Positions 10,976 to 17,911 of a stretch of DNA of 64,000 nucleotides are shown in pieces. Position 1 is the first letter of the stretch. The number at the start of each line of letters is the position of its first letter. The notes beneath the pieces were generated by a model. That model did not search any database and was not told the DNA's origin. It worked only from the letters and a program-made list of their open reading frames with translations. The position numbers and the translations under genes were made by a program. This DNA comes from Halobacterium sp. DL1 (GTDB taxonomy: Archaea; Halobacteriota; Halobacteria; Halobacteriales; Halobacteriaceae): the NCBI GenBank assembly GCA_000230955.3, contig CP007060.1, positions 1,302,001-1,366,000 of the forward strand. Reading direction: 5' to 3'.

Positions 10976-12112
10976 TCAGGTCGCGCTCAGGGCGACCACG
11001 CGGCCATCGGCGTACATCACGTAAATCTCCGCCGCGCCGTCGCCGTCCGTGTCCGCGAGTCGTGGGTGGGTGTAGACGACGACGTCGCGGCTGTACGTCG
11101 CCACCACCTGGCCGTCCGACGGCGAGACGACCTTCACCATGCCGTCGTTCGTCGTCGCGACGAGTTCTCGGTCGCCGTCGCCGTCCACGTCGCCGAGCAC
11201 CGGTGGGGGCATCATCTGGACGTCCGCGGTCGTCAGTGTCGTCGTCCACTCCGTCTCCCCGCTCTCAGCGTCGAGGTTGCGGAGGACGCCGTCCGCCGCG
11301 GTGGCGTAGACCTCCAGTGTTCCGTCGTCGTCGCCGTCGCCGACCGCCCGGACCGCCGCCAGTGCCTCGAACTCGCGGGTCCACTCGGCGCGACCGGTGC
11401 GGCCGTCCACCGCGACGACGGACCCGCCACGCGTCGCCACCACTATCTCGCGCGCCGGGTCGTCGTCGACGTTCGCCGTCGTCATCCACGTTATCGACGT
11501 CTCGGTGAGGTTCGCCCGGTGCCAGACGGTCGACCCGTCCTGCTCGAACAGGTTGAGTTCGCCACCGCCGGCCACGCCCACGACGAGTTCCCGGTCGCCG
11601 TCCGCGTCGAAGTCAGCGACCGACGGCTGCCCCCAGGTGTAGGCGTCCAGCTGCCGCGTCCACGCTGCCGTCCCGTTCGCGTGGACGACCGATACCTCGC
11701 CGCGCGCGTCGACCACGACCACCTCCCGCTCGCCGCCCCCGACGAAGTCAGTTAGGAGCGGGCCGGAGTAGCCGTAGGAGGATAGCTCGTAACTGAACTC
11801 CGCGTCGCCGGTACGGGCGTCGAACCCGGTGACTCGCCGTTCGGTCGTCGCGACGAACACCTCCAGCGTGCCGTCGCCGTCGAGGTCACCGACGACGGGG
11901 TCCGCGACGGCGTGGATGGCGCAGTCCTCGGGCGCGACTGGGTGGCTCCACTCCCGGTCGCCGTCACCGTCCAGCGCGAACAGTCCGCAGTCGTCGGTTC
12001 CCTTTCGGCCGCTCACCGGCGCGAACACGAACATCTCGTCCCCGAGTCTCGCCGCCGCCGGCTCGTGGTGGGTCACGCGCACGTCGCGCCCGGTGTCGCT
12101 CACCCACGCCAC
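10976..12112 (-). CDS. FG-GAP / PQQ-like beta-propeller repeat protein (start uncertain)
   Basis: About 378 residues of repeated blades with the pattern DLDGDGTLEVFVAT, DFDADGDRELVVGV and DVDGDGDRELVATT, each with calcium-binding-like aspartates, alternating with GFDARTGDAEFSYEL-type strands. Such propellers are usually extracytoplasmic and bind proteins or cofactors. No signal peptide and no ATG are found: the frame stays open upstream, but the first sensible start codon is a GTG at 12112, and the divergent gene begins at 12189. Either the start lies inside the divergent gene or the N-terminus has been lost. It heads the membrane/metal-protein cluster that follows. Confidence 0.68.
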   Translation of the reverse strand: MAWVSDTGRDVRVTHHEPAAARLGDEMFVFAPVSGRKGTDDCGLFALDGDGDREWSHPVAPEDCAIHAVADPVVGDLDGDGTLEVFVATTERRVTGFDARTGDAEFSYELSSYGYSGPLLTDFVGGGEREVVVVDARGEVSVVHANGTAAWTRQLDAYTWGQPSVADFDADGDRELVVGVAGGGELNLFEQDGSTVWHRANLTETSITWMTTANVDDDPAREIVVATRGGSVVAVDGRTGRAEWTREFEALAAVRAVGDGDDDGTLEVYATAADGVLRNLDAESGETEWTTTLTTADVQMMPPPVLGDVDGDGDRELVATTNDGMVKVVSPSDGQVVATYSRDVVVYTHPRLADTDGDGAAEIYVMYADGRVVALSAT

Positions 12113-12188
12113 CGAGAGGTCGGTGCTGTCGCCGCCGGAACCGCCGAACGCGAGGAACGCGCCGCTCGCTCGGCGACGACTCTCCCGT

Positions 12189-13508
12189 ATGCGCTGGACG
12201 CGCGTCGTCGGTGTTCTGCTCGCCGTCCCGTGGCTGGTCGGCGTCGCCGCTGCCCACGAGGTCCCGGGCGGGCGCCTCGACGCGCCACTCCCGCTCCCAC
12301 TGCTGTTCGCGGGGGCCGGCTTCACGGTCGCGGCGACCGCGTGTTGGTTCGCCCGCGACGACCACACCGTCGACGAGCGAGAGCGACGCCAGGTGGAAGT
12401 TCCGTGGCTCCCGCTCGGCAGACACCTCCTCCGTGCGGTCGGCCTGGTGGGGTTCGCGGGCGTGCTCTGGTTCGGGCTGTTCGGGCTGCAGGTGGCCGCC
12501 GACAACCCCGCCACGCTGTTCGCGTGGGCGGTCGCGCTGAAGGGCGTCGGCCTCGTCGCCGTCGTCGCCGGGAGCCCGTGGCGCTCGCTGTCGCCCTGGC
12601 GAACCGCCTACGACGCGTTCGTCGCGCTCGAGGGCGACGAGCTAGCGCGCTTCGACTACCCGGACTGGCTCGGCGTCTGGCCCGCAGTCGTCGGGTTCGT
12701 CCTCCTCGTCGGCGTCACCGAGAACCTCACCGGGATTCCCCAGTCGCCACGCCTCACCGCGGGCGTCCTCGCCGCTTACGCGGTTCTGATGCTCCTCGGC
12801 GGACTCGCGTTCGGCCGCACGTTCTTCGACCGGGCCGACGCCCTGGCGGTGCTCTACGCCCTCCTCGGTCGGGTCTCGCCACTGGAGTGGCGCGAGCGGG
12901 GCGTCGTCGTCCGCCCACCCTGGGCCGCCTGCGCTCGCACGCCGTCGACTCCAGGCGTCGCGGCCTTTGTCGTCGCGGCTGTCTACACCGTCACCTTCGA
13001 CGGGTTCTCGAACTCGCCCGAGTACCAGACCGTCTACTTCGCCCTCCGCGACGCCACCGGCGCAGTCACGCCGCTCGCGCTCTACGTCGCGGGCCTCGCG
13101 GCGTTCCTGGTCGCGTTCGCCGTGGTCGCGCTCGCGGCGGACCGACTCGGGTCGGGGCGGAGCGTTCGGGGCGCGGCCGCCGCGTTCGCGCCGACCGTCG
13201 TCCCCATCGCGGCCGCCTACGAGGTGGCCCACAACTACTCGTTCGTCGCGCGGAACCTCTCGCAGTTGCTGTCGCTGGTCGACGGGGTCTCTGTCTCCCT
13301 GCTCGGCTGGCTGCCGCTGTCGGCGTTCTGGTGGTCGCAGGTGGCGCTCGTCGTCGCCGGCCACCTCCTCGCCGTGGCGGCCGCACACCTCGTCGTCAGC
13401 GCCCGGTACGGCAAGCACGCCGGTCGGGCCCACGCGCCGCTCGTCGCGCTGATGGTCGGCTACACGGTGCTCTCCCTGTGGGTCGTCTCCCGCCCGGTCG
13501 TGACCTGA
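12189..13508 (+). CDS. polytopic membrane protein, weakly like the 'fenitrothion hydrolase' family
   Basis: A 439-residue protein with a signal-like N-terminus (MRWTRVVGVLLAVPWLVGVA) and roughly ten to eleven transmembrane segments. After the first helix come AAHEVPGGRLDAPLPLPLLF and, near 120-145, SPWRSLSPWRTAYDAF. This layout reminds me of the actinobacterial membrane proteins labelled fenitrothion hydrolase, whose true role is unclear; the resemblance is weak and from memory. A conserved-looking AYEVAHNYSF lies near 350. It is divergent from the propeller gene and followed by a small membrane protein and a regulator. Confidence 0.62.
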   Translation: MRWTRVVGVLLAVPWLVGVAAAHEVPGGRLDAPLPLPLLFAGAGFTVAATACWFARDDHTVDERERRQVEVPWLPLGRHLLRAVGLVGFAGVLWFGLFGLQVAADNPATLFAWAVALKGVGLVAVVAGSPWRSLSPWRTAYDAFVALEGDELARFDYPDWLGVWPAVVGFVLLVGVTENLTGIPQSPRLTAGVLAAYAVLMLLGGLAFGRTFFDRADALAVLYALLGRVSPLEWRERGVVVRPPWAACARTPSTPGVAAFVVAAVYTVTFDGFSNSPEYQTVYFALRDATGAVTPLALYVAGLAAFLVAFAVVALAADRLGSGRSVRGAAAAFAPTVVPIAAAYEVAHNYSFVARNLSQLLSLVDGVSVSLLGWLPLSAFWWSQVALVVAGHLLAVAAAHLVVSARYGKHAGRAHAPLVALMVGYTVLSLWVVSRPVVT

Positions 13509-13546
13509 CCCGAGCGCTTAGCACGCTCCGGCCGCAAGGGACGGTC

Positions 13547-13879
13547 GTGATTCCCGTCGCGCACGCCCAGTCGGCTGGCCTGAGCCTCCCCCTGGTGGCG
13601 GCGCTCGCTGTCGCCGGGCTCGCCGCCGCCGTGCTCACGGGCGCGGCGCTCGCCGTCTTTCTGCGACGCAAGTCCCGCTCGCACCTGCTGGTCGCACTCG
13701 CGCTCGGCGCTCTGCTCGCCCGCACCGGCGTCGCCGCCGCGAGCATCGGTGGCGCGATGGCTCTCGACAGCCACCACCTCGTCGAGCACTCGCTGGACGT
13801 GGTGATGGCGGCACTCGTCGTCGCTGCGGTCTACTACGCCCGATCTACAGAGGTCTCCTCGGGAGGTGGGACGCGGTGA
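13547..13879 (+). CDS. small membrane protein coupled to a winged-helix regulator
   Basis: A 110-residue protein from a GTG start. It has an N-terminal segment like a signal anchor (VAHAQSAGLSLPLVAALAVA) and three hydrophobic helices with SHHLVEHSLDVVMAALVVAA near the end. The next gene starts with GTG overlapping the stop by 4 bp, so translation is coupled. Pairs of a small three-helix membrane protein and a winged-helix protein recur in haloarchaea and may form a membrane-linked sensor and regulator. The function is unknown. Confidence 0.65.
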   Translation: MIPVAHAQSAGLSLPLVAALAVAGLAAAVLTGAALAVFLRRKSRSHLLVALALGALLARTGVAAASIGGAMALDSHHLVEHSLDVVMAALVVAAVYYARSTEVSSGGGTR

Positions 13880-14385
13880 CGGCCGTCCGCGAGCGCGTCC
13901 GCGACCACGTCGCCGCGAACCCCGGCGTCCACTTCAACGCCGTCGTGCGACAACTCGACCTCGCGCCCGGGCAGGTCCAGCACCACGTGCGCAGCCTCCG
14001 CGACGACGGCGCGCTCGCCGTCGACGGGTTCTACGGCCGTACGCACTACTTCCCGCCGGAGACGCCCGAGTGGGAGCGCGCGGCGCTCGCGCTCGCCCGC
14101 CGCGAGACGGCCCGCGACGTCCTCCTCTGCCTGCTGGACACGTGCCCGTCGTCGCCGAGTGACGTGGCCGAACGCGTCGGAGTCGCCCGGAGCACCCTCG
14201 AACACCACGTCTCGAATTTCGTCGAGTGCGGCGTCGTGGAGAAGCGCCGCGACGCCCGCAACCGCGTGACGCTCGCACTCACGCGGCCTGAGGATACGGT
14301 TCGCGTGCTCGACGCGGTCCAGCCGTCGGTTCCGGAGCGCTTCGTCGACCGCTTCGAGCGCCTCGTCGACGACCTACTGGACTGA
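13876..14385 (+). CDS. double winged-helix transcriptional regulator
   Basis: A 169-residue protein with two winged-helix domains. The first (VRERVRDHVAANPGVHFNAV to QVQHHVRSLRDDGAL) spans about 5-50, and the second (ARDVLLCLLDTCPSSPSDVA, then GVARSTLEHHVSNFVECGVV) spans about 75-120. Archaeal proteins of this tandem type usually repress or activate adjacent operons. It is coupled by a 4-bp overlap to the small membrane protein and is convergent with the next membrane-protein gene (12-bp overlap). The nearby metal/haem-like cluster is a plausible target. Confidence 0.78.
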   Translation: MTAVRERVRDHVAANPGVHFNAVVRQLDLAPGQVQHHVRSLRDDGALAVDGFYGRTHYFPPETPEWERAALALARRETARDVLLCLLDTCPSSPSDVAERVGVARSTLEHHVSNFVECGVVEKRRDARNRVTLALTRPEDTVRVLDAVQPSVPERFVDRFERLVDDLLD

Positions 14386-15483
14386 CTGCGCGCGGCCGCC
14401 GCTGACAGCGCGAACGACGCTCCCGAGCAGCAGCACCACGCTCGCCGCGAAGAAGACGCCGCCGACGGGGGACGAGGGGTCGAGGAACGCCCAGTAGGCG
14501 GGCGTCGCCGCCGCGCCGAACAGCACGGAGAGCACGCCGTAGAACGCCGGCGCGCAACAGCAGCACGCGGTCGCGCCGGTCGTCGCCGCCATCCCGAGCG
14601 CCGACGTGCCGGAGCTGTCCCTGGTGCCAGTGGCCCACTGCTGGACCATCACGCCGACGTTGAGCGCCGCCAGAGTCCCGAGCAGGGTGACCAGGAGGAC
14701 GGTGCCCACCGAGAAGTAGCCTGCCAGCGGTACTGACGGGAAGACGAACTCGACGGCGGGCCACGCGACCAGCGGGTCCGCCACCGGCAGGAAGATGACG
14801 AGCGGTTCTGTGGGAGCGCCCACGCCCGGGTCCGGGTTCAGCGTGAGGGTGCCCGCCGAAAACAGGAAGAACACGGAGAATAGCGTCCCGGCGAGCAGTC
14901 CGGCGCCGAGCGGGCGGCGGTCCCGGCGGAGGCTCTGGAGGACGGCCCGCGCGTCCCGCCACAGGACGTAGCCGACGGCCAGCACGACGGTCACGACGAG
15001 CACGTGGCCGGCCGGGTTGTAGACGCCCCCGTTCGGCATCGCGACTGGGTAGACGACCCACGCCGCGAGGAGGATTCCCAGGCCGGCGTACCGCGGCCGC
15101 TGGGGCCACCTGAGTCGACCGACGACGAGGCTACCGACGGCCATCGCGACGCCGACGACGAGGCTCAGCGTCGGGTAGATGTCCGTGAGCGTCGGCGGCG
15201 TCTCGGCGACGACCTGGAGTTCGACGAGACCGACGAGTCCGAACAGTCCGGCGACGGTGGCCGTGAACGCGACCACGGCGCTCGTCGTGCTCTCGACCGC
15301 GCTGCGTCGGTAGGCGGCGACAGCGCCCGCCGAGATGCCGCCGCCCACCAGCACCAGCACGAACAGCAGCCAGTGGGGGGTTCCGGCGTGCGTCGTGCCG
15401 GAGTGGGCCGCCGCCGTACCGACGGCAGTGCTGGCCGCGAGACCGCTCCCGGTGGCGCGCGCGACGCGCCGGATCGTCTGCAT
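14374..15483 (-). CDS. polytopic membrane protein with a four-cysteine cluster
   Basis: A 369-residue membrane protein starting with MQTIRRVARATGSGL and a signal-like segment ending AAAHSGTTHAG, then about nine hydrophobic helices. Near residues 303-315 it reads GATACCCCAPAFYG, four consecutive cysteines inside or at the edge of a helix, which could bind a metal ion or haem. It lies divergent from the DyP-like and P19-like lipoprotein genes, so a permease role in the same system is a reasonable guess. I do not recognise the family. Confidence 0.62.
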   Translation of the reverse strand: MQTIRRVARATGSGLAASTAVGTAAAHSGTTHAGTPHWLLFVLVLVGGGISAGAVAAYRRSAVESTTSAVVAFTATVAGLFGLVGLVELQVVAETPPTLTDIYPTLSLVVGVAMAVGSLVVGRLRWPQRPRYAGLGILLAAWVVYPVAMPNGGVYNPAGHVLVVTVVLAVGYVLWRDARAVLQSLRRDRRPLGAGLLAGTLFSVFFLFSAGTLTLNPDPGVGAPTEPLVIFLPVADPLVAWPAVEFVFPSVPLAGYFSVGTVLLVTLLGTLAALNVGVMVQQWATGTRDSSGTSALGMAATTGATACCCCAPAFYGVLSVLFGAAATPAYWAFLDPSSPVGGVFFAASVVLLLGSVVRAVSGGRAQSVQ

Positions 15484-15585
15484 GGTCGGAGATAGCGAGC
15501 GGGCACCTTAACGGATTCTGGTTCGCCCGTCGAATTCGACGCCCGCACCAGAACCCCTTTTCAGACACGCCCGTAACGGTCGACC

Positions 15586-16860
15586 ATGCACTCCGACGAG
15601 TGCGGTATCCCCCGCCGCGCGTTCCTCAAGTCGGCAGTCGCCATCGGCGGCGCGAGCGCGCTGGCGGCCTGCGTGGACCGCGAGAGCGAGGTCTCTGTCC
15701 CGACCGGCACCGACGACCCCGCGTCCCTGCCCGCACGCCAGCACGCGTGGAACGACTACGCCGCCCGCGACGACGCCGGCAACGTCCTGCCGCCTCGCCA
15801 CCACGTCCTCCTCCACCTCGACTACGACGGCTCCGAACCGACGGCCGACGACCGCCGGACACTCGAGGACGCGCTCCGCTCGCTGGAGCGCGCCTACGAG
15901 TGGTCGAACGAGGGCCTGCTGTTCACGCTCGGCTACTCGCCCGCGTACTTCGAGTCACTCGGCGGGTCGCCCGCTGACGTAGACCTGCCAGAACCACGCG
16001 CCCTCTCGGAACTCGAAGACCCCGAGTTCGACACTCCTGACGCAATCCTCCACTTCGCGAGCGACCACGCGCAGGTCGTCCTCGCGGCCGAGGAGGGGAT
16101 GCGCGGGAACCGCGAGGCGCTCAACGACGGACCGGTCGACGCCACGCTGACCGACGCGTTCTCGGTAGCCGACCGTCGAACCGGCTTCGTCGGCGAGGGT
16201 CTCCCGGCCGACAACCAGGACACGGGCGGCGTCCCGGACTCGAAACCGGTCGACGAGGACGCCCCGCTGTACATGGGGTTCAAATCCGACTTCGAGAAGA
16301 GCCAGGCGACCGAGGACCGCGTCACGATTCAGTCCGGTCCGTTCGCGGGCGGCACCACCCAGCACGTCTCCCACATCGACCTGAACCTCCAGCAGTGGTA
16401 CGAGCAGGACGGCCGCGAGGAGCGCGTCGCGAAGATGTTCTGTCCGGCCCACGCCGACTCGGGCGCCGTCGAGGGGACCGGCGAGAATCTCGGAGATAGC
16501 CCCCAGCTAGACGACTGTGCGGACCCTCTGGAGGACGCCCAGCAGCGCGGCGTCGTCGGCCACGGCCAGAAACTCCAGTCCGTGCGCGAGGACGGCCGCC
16601 CCATCATCCTCCGGCGGGACTTCGACTCCACGGACTTCGACCACGCGGGCACCCACTTCCTCGCCCTCCAGCGAGAGCTATCGGACTTCGTCACCACCAG
16701 AGACGCCATGAACGCCACGGACATCACGGACCAGTCGGCAGTCGGACGGCGCACGAACAACGGCATCAGGCAGTATCTCTCGGTGACCCACCGCGGGAAC
16801 TACCTGCTGCCGCCGCGCGGGAAGCGCACGCTCCCCACTCCGGAGGGCGGCGATGCGTAG
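15586..16860 (+). CDS. DyP-peroxidase-like Tat lipoprotein
   Basis: A 424-residue protein with a Tat motif (PRRAFLKSAV) and lipobox LAAC near residue 29, so it should be anchored outside the membrane. The body resembles dye-decolourising peroxidases and EfeB: GLLFTLGYSPAYFESLG near 110, GFKSDF near 231 at the place of the GxxDG motif, GGTTQHVS near 255, a candidate haem-ligand histidine in GHGQKL (H326), then IILRRDF and HFLALQRELSDF. The usual distal aspartate and arginine seem replaced. DyP-like proteins oxidise dyes or act on haem and iron. The next gene overlaps by 8 bp. Confidence 0.72.
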   Translation: MHSDECGIPRRAFLKSAVAIGGASALAACVDRESEVSVPTGTDDPASLPARQHAWNDYAARDDAGNVLPPRHHVLLHLDYDGSEPTADDRRTLEDALRSLERAYEWSNEGLLFTLGYSPAYFESLGGSPADVDLPEPRALSELEDPEFDTPDAILHFASDHAQVVLAAEEGMRGNREALNDGPVDATLTDAFSVADRRTGFVGEGLPADNQDTGGVPDSKPVDEDAPLYMGFKSDFEKSQATEDRVTIQSGPFAGGTTQHVSHIDLNLQQWYEQDGREERVAKMFCPAHADSGAVEGTGENLGDSPQLDDCADPLEDAQQRGVVGHGQKLQSVREDGRPIILRRDFDSTDFDHAGTHFLALQRELSDFVTTRDAMNATDITDQSAVGRRTNNGIRQYLSVTHRGNYLLPPRGKRTLPTPEGGDA

Positions 16861-17911
16861 ACGCGACGTGCTAGCCGCGGCAGGTGCCACGGGCCTCGCT
16901 GCGTCGGCTGGCTGTCTCGGCTTCCTCGAGACGGAGCGCGCGAGTCGCGAACCGCCGGTCCCCGAGAACCGGCCGGACGCGCCCTACCTCCCCTCGCACA
17001 CGGAGGGAATGGAGATGGCGGGGATGGTCGCGAACGGGCGATACCGCTGCGCCCTGTCGTACACGTTTGCCCACCGCTTCTGGCTCGTGAACGGGGAGAG
17101 CACCGAGCGCGTCGACGTCGAGGACGGCGACGACGTCCACCTGATGGCGTCGGTGTGGGACGCCGAGGCGGGCGTCGCGCTCCCCGCGACGAGCCCCCAC
17201 ATTACCCTCTCCGGCCCGGACGGCGAGACCAGTTCGTTGGCCCCCTGGCAGATGCTCTCCCAGCAGATGGGCGTCCACTACGGCGACAACGTCGGCCTCG
17301 GAGCGGAGGGCGACTACGAGGCCACGGTCCAAGTCGCCCTCGGCGGGACGCGGCGGACGGACTCGGTCGAGACCCCGGACGGCCCGATACAGTTCTCCTT
17401 CTCGTTCACGTTCGAGCGGAACGCCCTGAACGAACTCCCCTACGAGGACATCCCGGCGGACCGCGAGGGGAACGAAGGCGCCGTCGACCCGATGGACACG
17501 AAGGCCGTGCAGGTCGGCCGAGTGCCCGCCGCGAACTCGTTCCCGATTCCGCTCCGCGGGAGCGGCGCGACGGAAGGCGTGGAACTGGCCGTCGGGGGCA
17601 CCGACCAGCGCGGCCAGTTCGCGACGGGGGACGACAAGTCCTACCTCGTCGGGTCGCTGCGCACCCAGCACAACCGATTCCCGCTTCCCGCCGCCACGCT
17701 CGTCGCGGACGTCGTGCGGGACGGCGAGACGCGCTACGACGGCCCGCTGACTGCGACCCTCGACCCGGAACTCGGCTTCCACTACGGCGCCACCGTTCCG
17801 TCGCTATCCGAGGTTGACGAAGTGACAGTCCGGATGCAGGCGCCACCACAAGTCTCCCGCCACGAGGGGTACGAGACGGCGTTCTTCGGCTTCGATTCGG
17901 TGCGGCTCTGA
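16853..17911 (+). CDS. P19/Tp34-like metal-binding lipoprotein
   Basis: A 352-residue protein with a Tat/lipobox N-terminus (MRRRDVLAAAG, then ASAGC). The first domain has EGMEMAGM and LSQQMGVHYGDNVGL near 135-150, matching the Met and His-Tyr-Gly region of P19/Tp34 periplasmic iron and copper proteins. A second HYG (GFHYGATV) occurs at residue 310, so the protein may hold two related domains. P19-type proteins deliver iron to permeases in FetMP and FtrABCD systems. It overlaps the DyP-like gene by 8 bp (translational coupling). An iron- or haem-uptake role is an inference. Confidence 0.65.
   Translation: MRRRDVLAAAGATGLAASAGCLGFLETERASREPPVPENRPDAPYLPSHTEGMEMAGMVANGRYRCALSYTFAHRFWLVNGESTERVDVEDGDDVHLMASVWDAEAGVALPATSPHITLSGPDGETSSLAPWQMLSQQMGVHYGDNVGLGAEGDYEATVQVALGGTRRTDSVETPDGPIQFSFSFTFERNALNELPYEDIPADREGNEGAVDPMDTKAVQVGRVPAANSFPIPLRGSGATEGVELAVGGTDQRGQFATGDDKSYLVGSLRTQHNRFPLPAATLVADVVRDGETRYDGPLTATLDPELGFHYGATVPSLSEVDEVTVRMQAPPQVSRHEGYETAFFGFDSVRL

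Follow-up and report, generated by a model that had tools for sequence, protein, structure and literature searches.

Positions 10,976 to 17,911 of a 64,000-nucleotide stretch of the Halobacterium sp. DL1 genome (contig CP007060.1, positions 1,302,001 to 1,366,000 of the forward strand; hereafter the window) carry a cluster that joins a dye-decolorising peroxidase (DyP)-like lipoprotein and a P19-like lipoprotein with two large membrane proteins, a small one, a beta-propeller and a double winged-helix protein. Of the roles weighed here, the most likely one for the set is the handling of copper outside the cell, carried out without the iron permease of similar bacterial systems. We put the chance that it is an extracytoplasmic copper-handling module, co-regulated through one promoter element, at about even. 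That the genes form a module and a regulon is well supported, and much better so than the identity of the metal. The module reading builds on the co-inheritance of the two lipoprotein families, DUF7405 (DyP-like) and DUF7350 (P19-like), and on a promoter element fixed at -39. Every gene that a first-pass annotation of this sequence had named was found at the coordinates given for it, and the features are listed below.

10976-12112, minus strand: PROP, an FG-GAP/PQQ-type beta-propeller (Pfam PQQ_2 2e-16, FG-GAP_3 3e-15); start uncertain
12189-13508, plus strand: MEM1, the second large membrane protein, polytopic; no Pfam family; invariant His348 and His392
about 13547-13879, plus strand: DUF7471 small membrane protein (PF24283, E=2e-26)
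13876-14385, plus strand: double winged-helix protein, with an HVO_0163-type N-terminal domain and then a second winged helix-turn-helix (PF24266, E=5e-32; HTH_24, 3e-12)
14374-15483, minus strand: M4C, a Cys4 membrane protein; CCCC is residues 307-310; N-terminal His motif AHSGTTHAGTPHW
15516-15534, minus strand: TTCGA-N7-ACCAGAA element for M4C, with ACCAGAA at -39 from the M4C start
15535-15553, plus strand: TTCGA-N7-ACCAGAA element for the DUF7405 gene, with ACCAGAA at -39 from the DUF7405 start
15586-16860, plus strand: DUF7405, a DyP-like twin-arginine translocation (Tat) lipoprotein (Pfam E=4e-158; DyP fold in the predicted structure)
16853-17911, plus strand: DUF7350, a P19-like Tat lipoprotein with tandem P19-like domains (Pfam DUF7350 plus a sub-threshold Iron_transport match)

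Co-inheritance and a shared promoter element

Among 294 Halobacteria genomes, DUF7405 is present in 263 (74 of 78 genera) and DUF7350 in 256. Both families occur in 255 genomes, DUF7405 alone in 8, DUF7350 alone in 1 and neither in 30 (Fisher p=1.6e-32, a value that ignores shared ancestry; the losses are spread over at least four families). The first-pass annotation had named separate inheritance in haloarchaeal relatives as an outcome that would refute a common system, and only nine genomes keep one gene without the other. Several of the genomes without DUF7350 also give the weakest DUF7405 matches (G012, G016, G103, G219, G280). When a sample of the whole phylum was searched, all 18 DUF7405 matches fell in the same order as the source genome and 0 outside it. 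Close to nine in ten haloarchaeal genomes hold the gene pair, yet both of its members are unnamed DUF families.

The wider gene set is linked to this pair to differing degrees. Within 8 genes of 87 DyP-like genes we found a P19-like gene in 69 cases, a winged-helix gene in 33, DUF7471 in 26, MEM1 in 16, PROP in 11 and M4C in 6. Since gene order is shuffled between genera, this linkage is more than simple synteny. A P19 or PROP gene also adjoins most of the MEM1-like loci that were picked independently of DyP (L120-L131), and in many loci a PROP-type gene lies close to MEM1 or P19. Halarchaeum sp. CBA1220 has almost all of the set in one block (DyP, P19, a MEM1-sized membrane protein, a helix-turn-helix protein, a small protein and a PQQ propeller), where a DsbD_2/TauE-SafE protein adjoins the P19-like gene. 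The DyP-like/P19-like overlap of 8 bp that had been claimed for the window is exact (ATG at 16853, TAG at 16858-16860), and it recurs in three Halobacterium-like loci (L031, L075, L087) and in Halarchaeum. The winged-helix and DUF7471 genes overlap by 4 bp.

M4C and DyP are divergent genes 102 bp apart, and the gap contains a 38-bp imperfect palindrome formed by two back-to-back copies of the element, and in one relative (L075) the palindrome arms are perfect over 20 bp. Upstream of DyP-like genes, ACCAGAA is the most enriched 7-mer (31 of 91 observed, 2.9 expected, p=1e-23). In the alignment, the consensus TTCGA-N7-ACCAGAA runs into a TATA-like stretch, and 54 of 64 sites place ACCAGAA -38 to -40 from the start codon. 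Palindromes in general were discarded as a signal, since upstream of DyP genes they reach only about twice the shuffled expectation (10 versus 5.5); it is the heptamer, at its fixed position, that carries the signal. We then applied a matrix built solely from DyP promoters to other genes, where it matched upstream of P19 in 34 of 97 cases, M4C in 5 of 16, MEM1 in 5 of 56 and PROP in 1 of 21, versus 7 of 1955 unlabelled genes (p=3e-41 for P19 versus unlabelled).

In the 3.16-Mb genome the exact pattern occurs only twice, both times between the M4C and DyP genes. Exact copies are present in 198 of 294 Halobacteria genomes and 67 of 78 genera, versus about 14 genomes for the reversed control pattern. 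Several exact matches elsewhere lie inside genes or have no clear downstream start, and look like chance. Relatives carry the element at a similar position before further genes, namely CopC-CopD next to a winged-helix gene, NosL, DsbA-like thioredoxins and high-potential iron-sulfur protein (HiPIP)-like proteins; it also precedes a DsbD_2-like protein (assigned from a sequence motif) and a small Tat protein of an unnamed family. We found no paper that describes the element. Through it, a regulon becomes directly accessible in a group of archaea that is amenable to genetics.

The neighbouring double winged-helix protein is probably the regulator of the element. The element was found at 22 of 34 DyP-like genes with a winged-helix gene nearby and at 18 of 57 without one, a loose association that is compatible with such a role. 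The matrix gave no match upstream of the winged-helix genes themselves (0 of 44) or of DUF7471 (0 of 19). The first-pass annotation had proposed a search for a winged-helix binding site in the divergent region; a shared and widespread element does exist there, while the winged-helix protein is a candidate binder only.

A few loci show further variation. In Halobacterium salinarum (L032), the DyP-like gene retains the ACCAGAA box, and no P19-like or M4C gene was found within 10 kb. At L233 (G114:C1:1551000-1569000), DyP-like fragments are split by transposase-like genes and lie next to winged-helix and NosL-like genes, which suggests a copy of the cluster in decay. A Tat-exported family (AAHFP..L.IDI) is repeatedly preceded by the element (L207, L214-L217, L220, L222, L206). 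Three genera share a near-identical segment with two element copies each (L228, L229, L230), and in two of these an insert with a Cys-rich DUF411/CopG-like protein lies between the copies.

The P19-like protein and the membrane partners

The P19 fold claimed for the second lipoprotein is borne out, but as a tandem of two P19-type domains and not as a single domain. The DUF7350 family profile matches FtrA-P19 (E=6e-6), the Pfam Iron_transport model (PF10634) matches 29 of 30 members at E<=0.1 (best 4.5e-10), and the predicted fold is closest to FetP, P19 and FtrA (Foldseek best FetP, 1.3e-6). The C-terminal domain aligns with the N-terminal one (hhalign probability 96.8, E=3e-10 for a single comparison), and the protein is therefore a fused pair of P19-like domains. 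Met129 and His137 are conserved in 30 of 30 members, E46 in 28 of 30 and His44 in 21 of 30. We take the copper ligands of FetP and P19 to be HxE, Met, His and His; the last His is missing from the first DUF7350 domain, and an invariant RH sits in the second. The subclass without His44 often adjoins a gene for a secreted DUF7282 protein (L043, L064, L067, L093, L114). Some P19-like proteins carry long Met-rich or His-rich insertions (L244, L246, L065, L046), which are typical of copper-binding proteins.

Neither MEM1 nor M4C matches a Pfam family above cut-off, and MEM1 has no sequence match in the PDB either. Across 51 members of the MEM1 family, Tyr344, His348 and His392 are invariant and His400 is near-invariant. 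In M4C the run ACCCC(A/G)P has an invariant CCCC in 7 diverse homologues.

Two MEM1 paralogues are present in this genome (L167, G000:C1:2167899-2169026; L168, 1150382-1151728). They occupy both of the terminal-oxidase loci sampled here, which hold oxidase subunits I and II and DUF7546; one locus also has a CtaA-UbiA fusion. At each of the two, the paralogue is accompanied by a small zinc-finger-like membrane protein (c77). In a further set of 20 paralogue loci, COX1 and/or COX2 is close by in 11, and P19, NirK/halocyanin or P-type ATPase genes accompany most of the others. The MEM1 tree contains one clade tied to DyP, P19 and PROP and another that is mainly oxidase-linked and includes a second P19-linked group, so the association with P19 is seen in two separate branches. 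DyP-like genes are directly linked to oxidase genes in few loci only, and these were not counted as evidence. The conserved residues and neighbourhoods suggest that MEM1 has a role in copper or haem-copper handling. Haloarchaea use the copper protein halocyanin in place of cytochrome c. To our knowledge, little has been established about how copper is delivered to their respiratory enzymes, and MEM1 ties the cluster to this question.

The start of PROP is less clear. Its reading frame is open upstream to about 12172 and further, and it has no clear N-terminal signal of the kind its relatives show; either the start is uncertain or the 5' end is degraded (10976-12190).

Copper and other possible roles

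Several lines of evidence point to copper. The element precedes CopC-CopD, NosL, DsbA-like, HiPIP and DsbD_2-like genes; MEM1 paralogues adjoin COX1/COX2, NirK/halocyanin and P-type ATPase genes; and the P19 relatives of solved structure are copper-bound, with the aligned Met and His invariant in DUF7350 and Met-rich or His-rich insertions in some members. Additionally, some DyP/P19 loci are accompanied by halocyanin, a NirK-like multicopper oxidase, P-type ATPases and cation diffusion facilitator (CDF) or ZIP transporters. A metal-related role, at first a guess, has gained support from these data, with copper favoured over the uptake of iron or haem.

On this evidence, the P19-like lipoprotein would bind copper at the cell surface, and the DyP-fold lipoprotein, which probably binds haem, would carry out redox reactions with the metal itself or with a ligand bound to it. 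MEM1, through its conserved His residues, and M4C, through its His motif and Cys4 run, could move copper towards or through the membrane, with DsbA/DsbD-type thiol proteins, NosL or CopC-CopD possibly assisting in some species. The double winged-helix protein, perhaps together with DUF7471, would regulate the TTCGA-N7-ACCAGAA element. The purpose may be to provide copper for surface cuproproteins (halocyanin, haem-copper oxidase, NirK), to protect against copper, or both.

Several observations weigh against this proposal. Bacterial P19 proteins function in iron uptake, and zinc and iron genes occur among the neighbours (ZnuA, ZIP, siderophore-type binding proteins, a Zn-type P-ATPase). The motifs of P-type ATPases near the loci are mixed (CPH, CPC, Zn-type) and do not discriminate between metals. 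The two large membrane proteins differ in conservation: the MEM1 family was found in 100 of 146 genomes, mostly as paralogues, and M4C in 19 of 146, so that M4C is not widespread. The element was matched at 40 of 91 DyP promoters, and other clades may use a variant of it or a different regulator. The looseness of its association with the winged-helix gene counts on the same side. Within the window neither MEM1 nor PROP was seen to have the element upstream, and these two therefore belong to the module by linkage in relatives and not by site.

The foremost alternative, which we consider unlikely, is iron uptake, in which the DyP-like and P19-like proteins oxidise or strip surface iron and MEM1 or another carrier replaces the FTR1 permease. 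FetP, FtrA and P19 belong to iron-uptake systems (PMC6083913), and the nearest analogue of the DyP-like protein in terms of mechanism is EfeB, the DyP of EfeUOB. Siderophore-type binding proteins near some loci fit as well, as does the RefSeq name of the P19-like protein, 'iron transporter'. However, no FTR1-family permease (PF03239) was detected in any of 79 haloarchaea, this genome included, with control genomes positive. CopC-CopD and NosL among the element-bearing genes also speak against iron uptake, and the MEM1 paralogues accompany haem-copper oxidases, not iron transporters.

A second alternative is oxidant or haem defence, in which the DyP-like protein works at the surface as a functional peroxidase or degrades haem, supported by the other proteins. 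The predicted fold of DUF7405 is that of a DyP: in the AlphaFold2 model (pLDDT 84.6) the two ferredoxin-like domains of the fold are present, and all 50 of the 50 PDB matches listed by Foldseek are dye-decolorising peroxidases (best E=7e-16). The Pfam DyP C-terminal model matches 12 of 22 members at E<=0.1, and the N-terminal model has no match in this genome. Searches of the PDB with the single DyP-like and P19-like sequences (phmmer) returned no match, and profiles and predicted folds were therefore required. BurrH repeats, the first PDB matches of the DyP profile, were spurious, having matched the signal region. H326 aligns with the haem-ligand His of E. coli EfeB and R344 with the distal Arg, both invariant in 22 members, whereas the Asp of the EfeB GFKDG motif is Ser here and Ser, Ala or Thr in the alignment (Asp in 0 of 22); this residue map relies on motif alignment and fold jointly, as the hhalign score is low. 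The DyP-like assignment of the first-pass annotation thus holds for the fold, the proximal His and the distal Arg, and not for the catalytic Asp of GxxDG. According to a review (PMC7611857), DyP active sites consist almost exclusively of a proximal His, a distal Asp and a distal Arg, and with the Asp replaced throughout the alignment a plain peroxidase role is weakened, as is the oxidant-defence role that had also been guessed. Haem binding is plausible; ordinary DyP peroxidase chemistry is less so. Although the retained His and Arg and the thiol-redox proteins among the element-bearing genes agree with oxidant or haem defence, it leaves the element-bearing copper genes unexplained, and we regard it as improbable. 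General homeostasis of divalent metals (zinc, manganese), with the copper genes as incidental neighbours, would account for ZnuA, ZIP and Zn-type P-ATPase near some loci, but such neighbours are scattered single cases and the element was not seen before the sampled CDF and P-ATPase genes; we hold it to be the least likely of the readings.

A broader proposal can also be made, for which we claim somewhat less than an even chance. The cluster may represent a class-wide haloarchaeal copper system with its own cis-regulatory code that takes the place of FTR1-based systems. Its parts would be a DyP-fold protein in which the usual catalytic Asp is missing, a protein with two fused P19 domains and a new membrane-protein family, MEM1, that also serves haem-copper oxidases.

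Comparison with known metal systems

The first-pass annotation knew of no system with this composition, and this agrees with what we found: no paper on a matching system was located, and the searched passages of papers on copper in haloarchaea do not mention these genes. The folds are known. Their combination, as far as we could find, is undescribed, and the same holds for the lost DyP Asp, the P19 fusion, the lack of FTR1, the link of MEM1 to oxidases and the class-wide element.

As no FTR1 was found in the 79 haloarchaea, the cluster is not EfeUOB, FetMP or FtrABCD. With EfeUOB it shares a Tat-exported DyP-fold protein alongside an extracytoplasmic metal-binding protein, but it has no EfeU permease, the catalytic Asp of EfeB is replaced by Ser, and the partner is of the P19 type; no cluster gene matched M75 (EfeO) in Pfam, where no genome-wide M75 search was made. 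The FetMP, FtrABCD and P19 systems likewise have a P19-fold metal-binding protein, and in some haloarchaea a DsbD-type protein lies nearby. They differ in that the cluster has the P19-type protein without its usual FTR1 permease, a tandem P19 in one chain, a DyP-like partner and membrane partners from uncharacterised families.

We know of no described copper-supply system that includes the DyP-like, P19-like, M4C or MEM1 proteins. What the cluster shares with copper supply by CopC-CopD, NosL and thiol chaperones is the same element before CopC-CopD and NosL in relatives, and MEM1 paralogues in oxidase loci. By analogy, the logic of the cluster resembles that of the known P19 and DyP metal systems.

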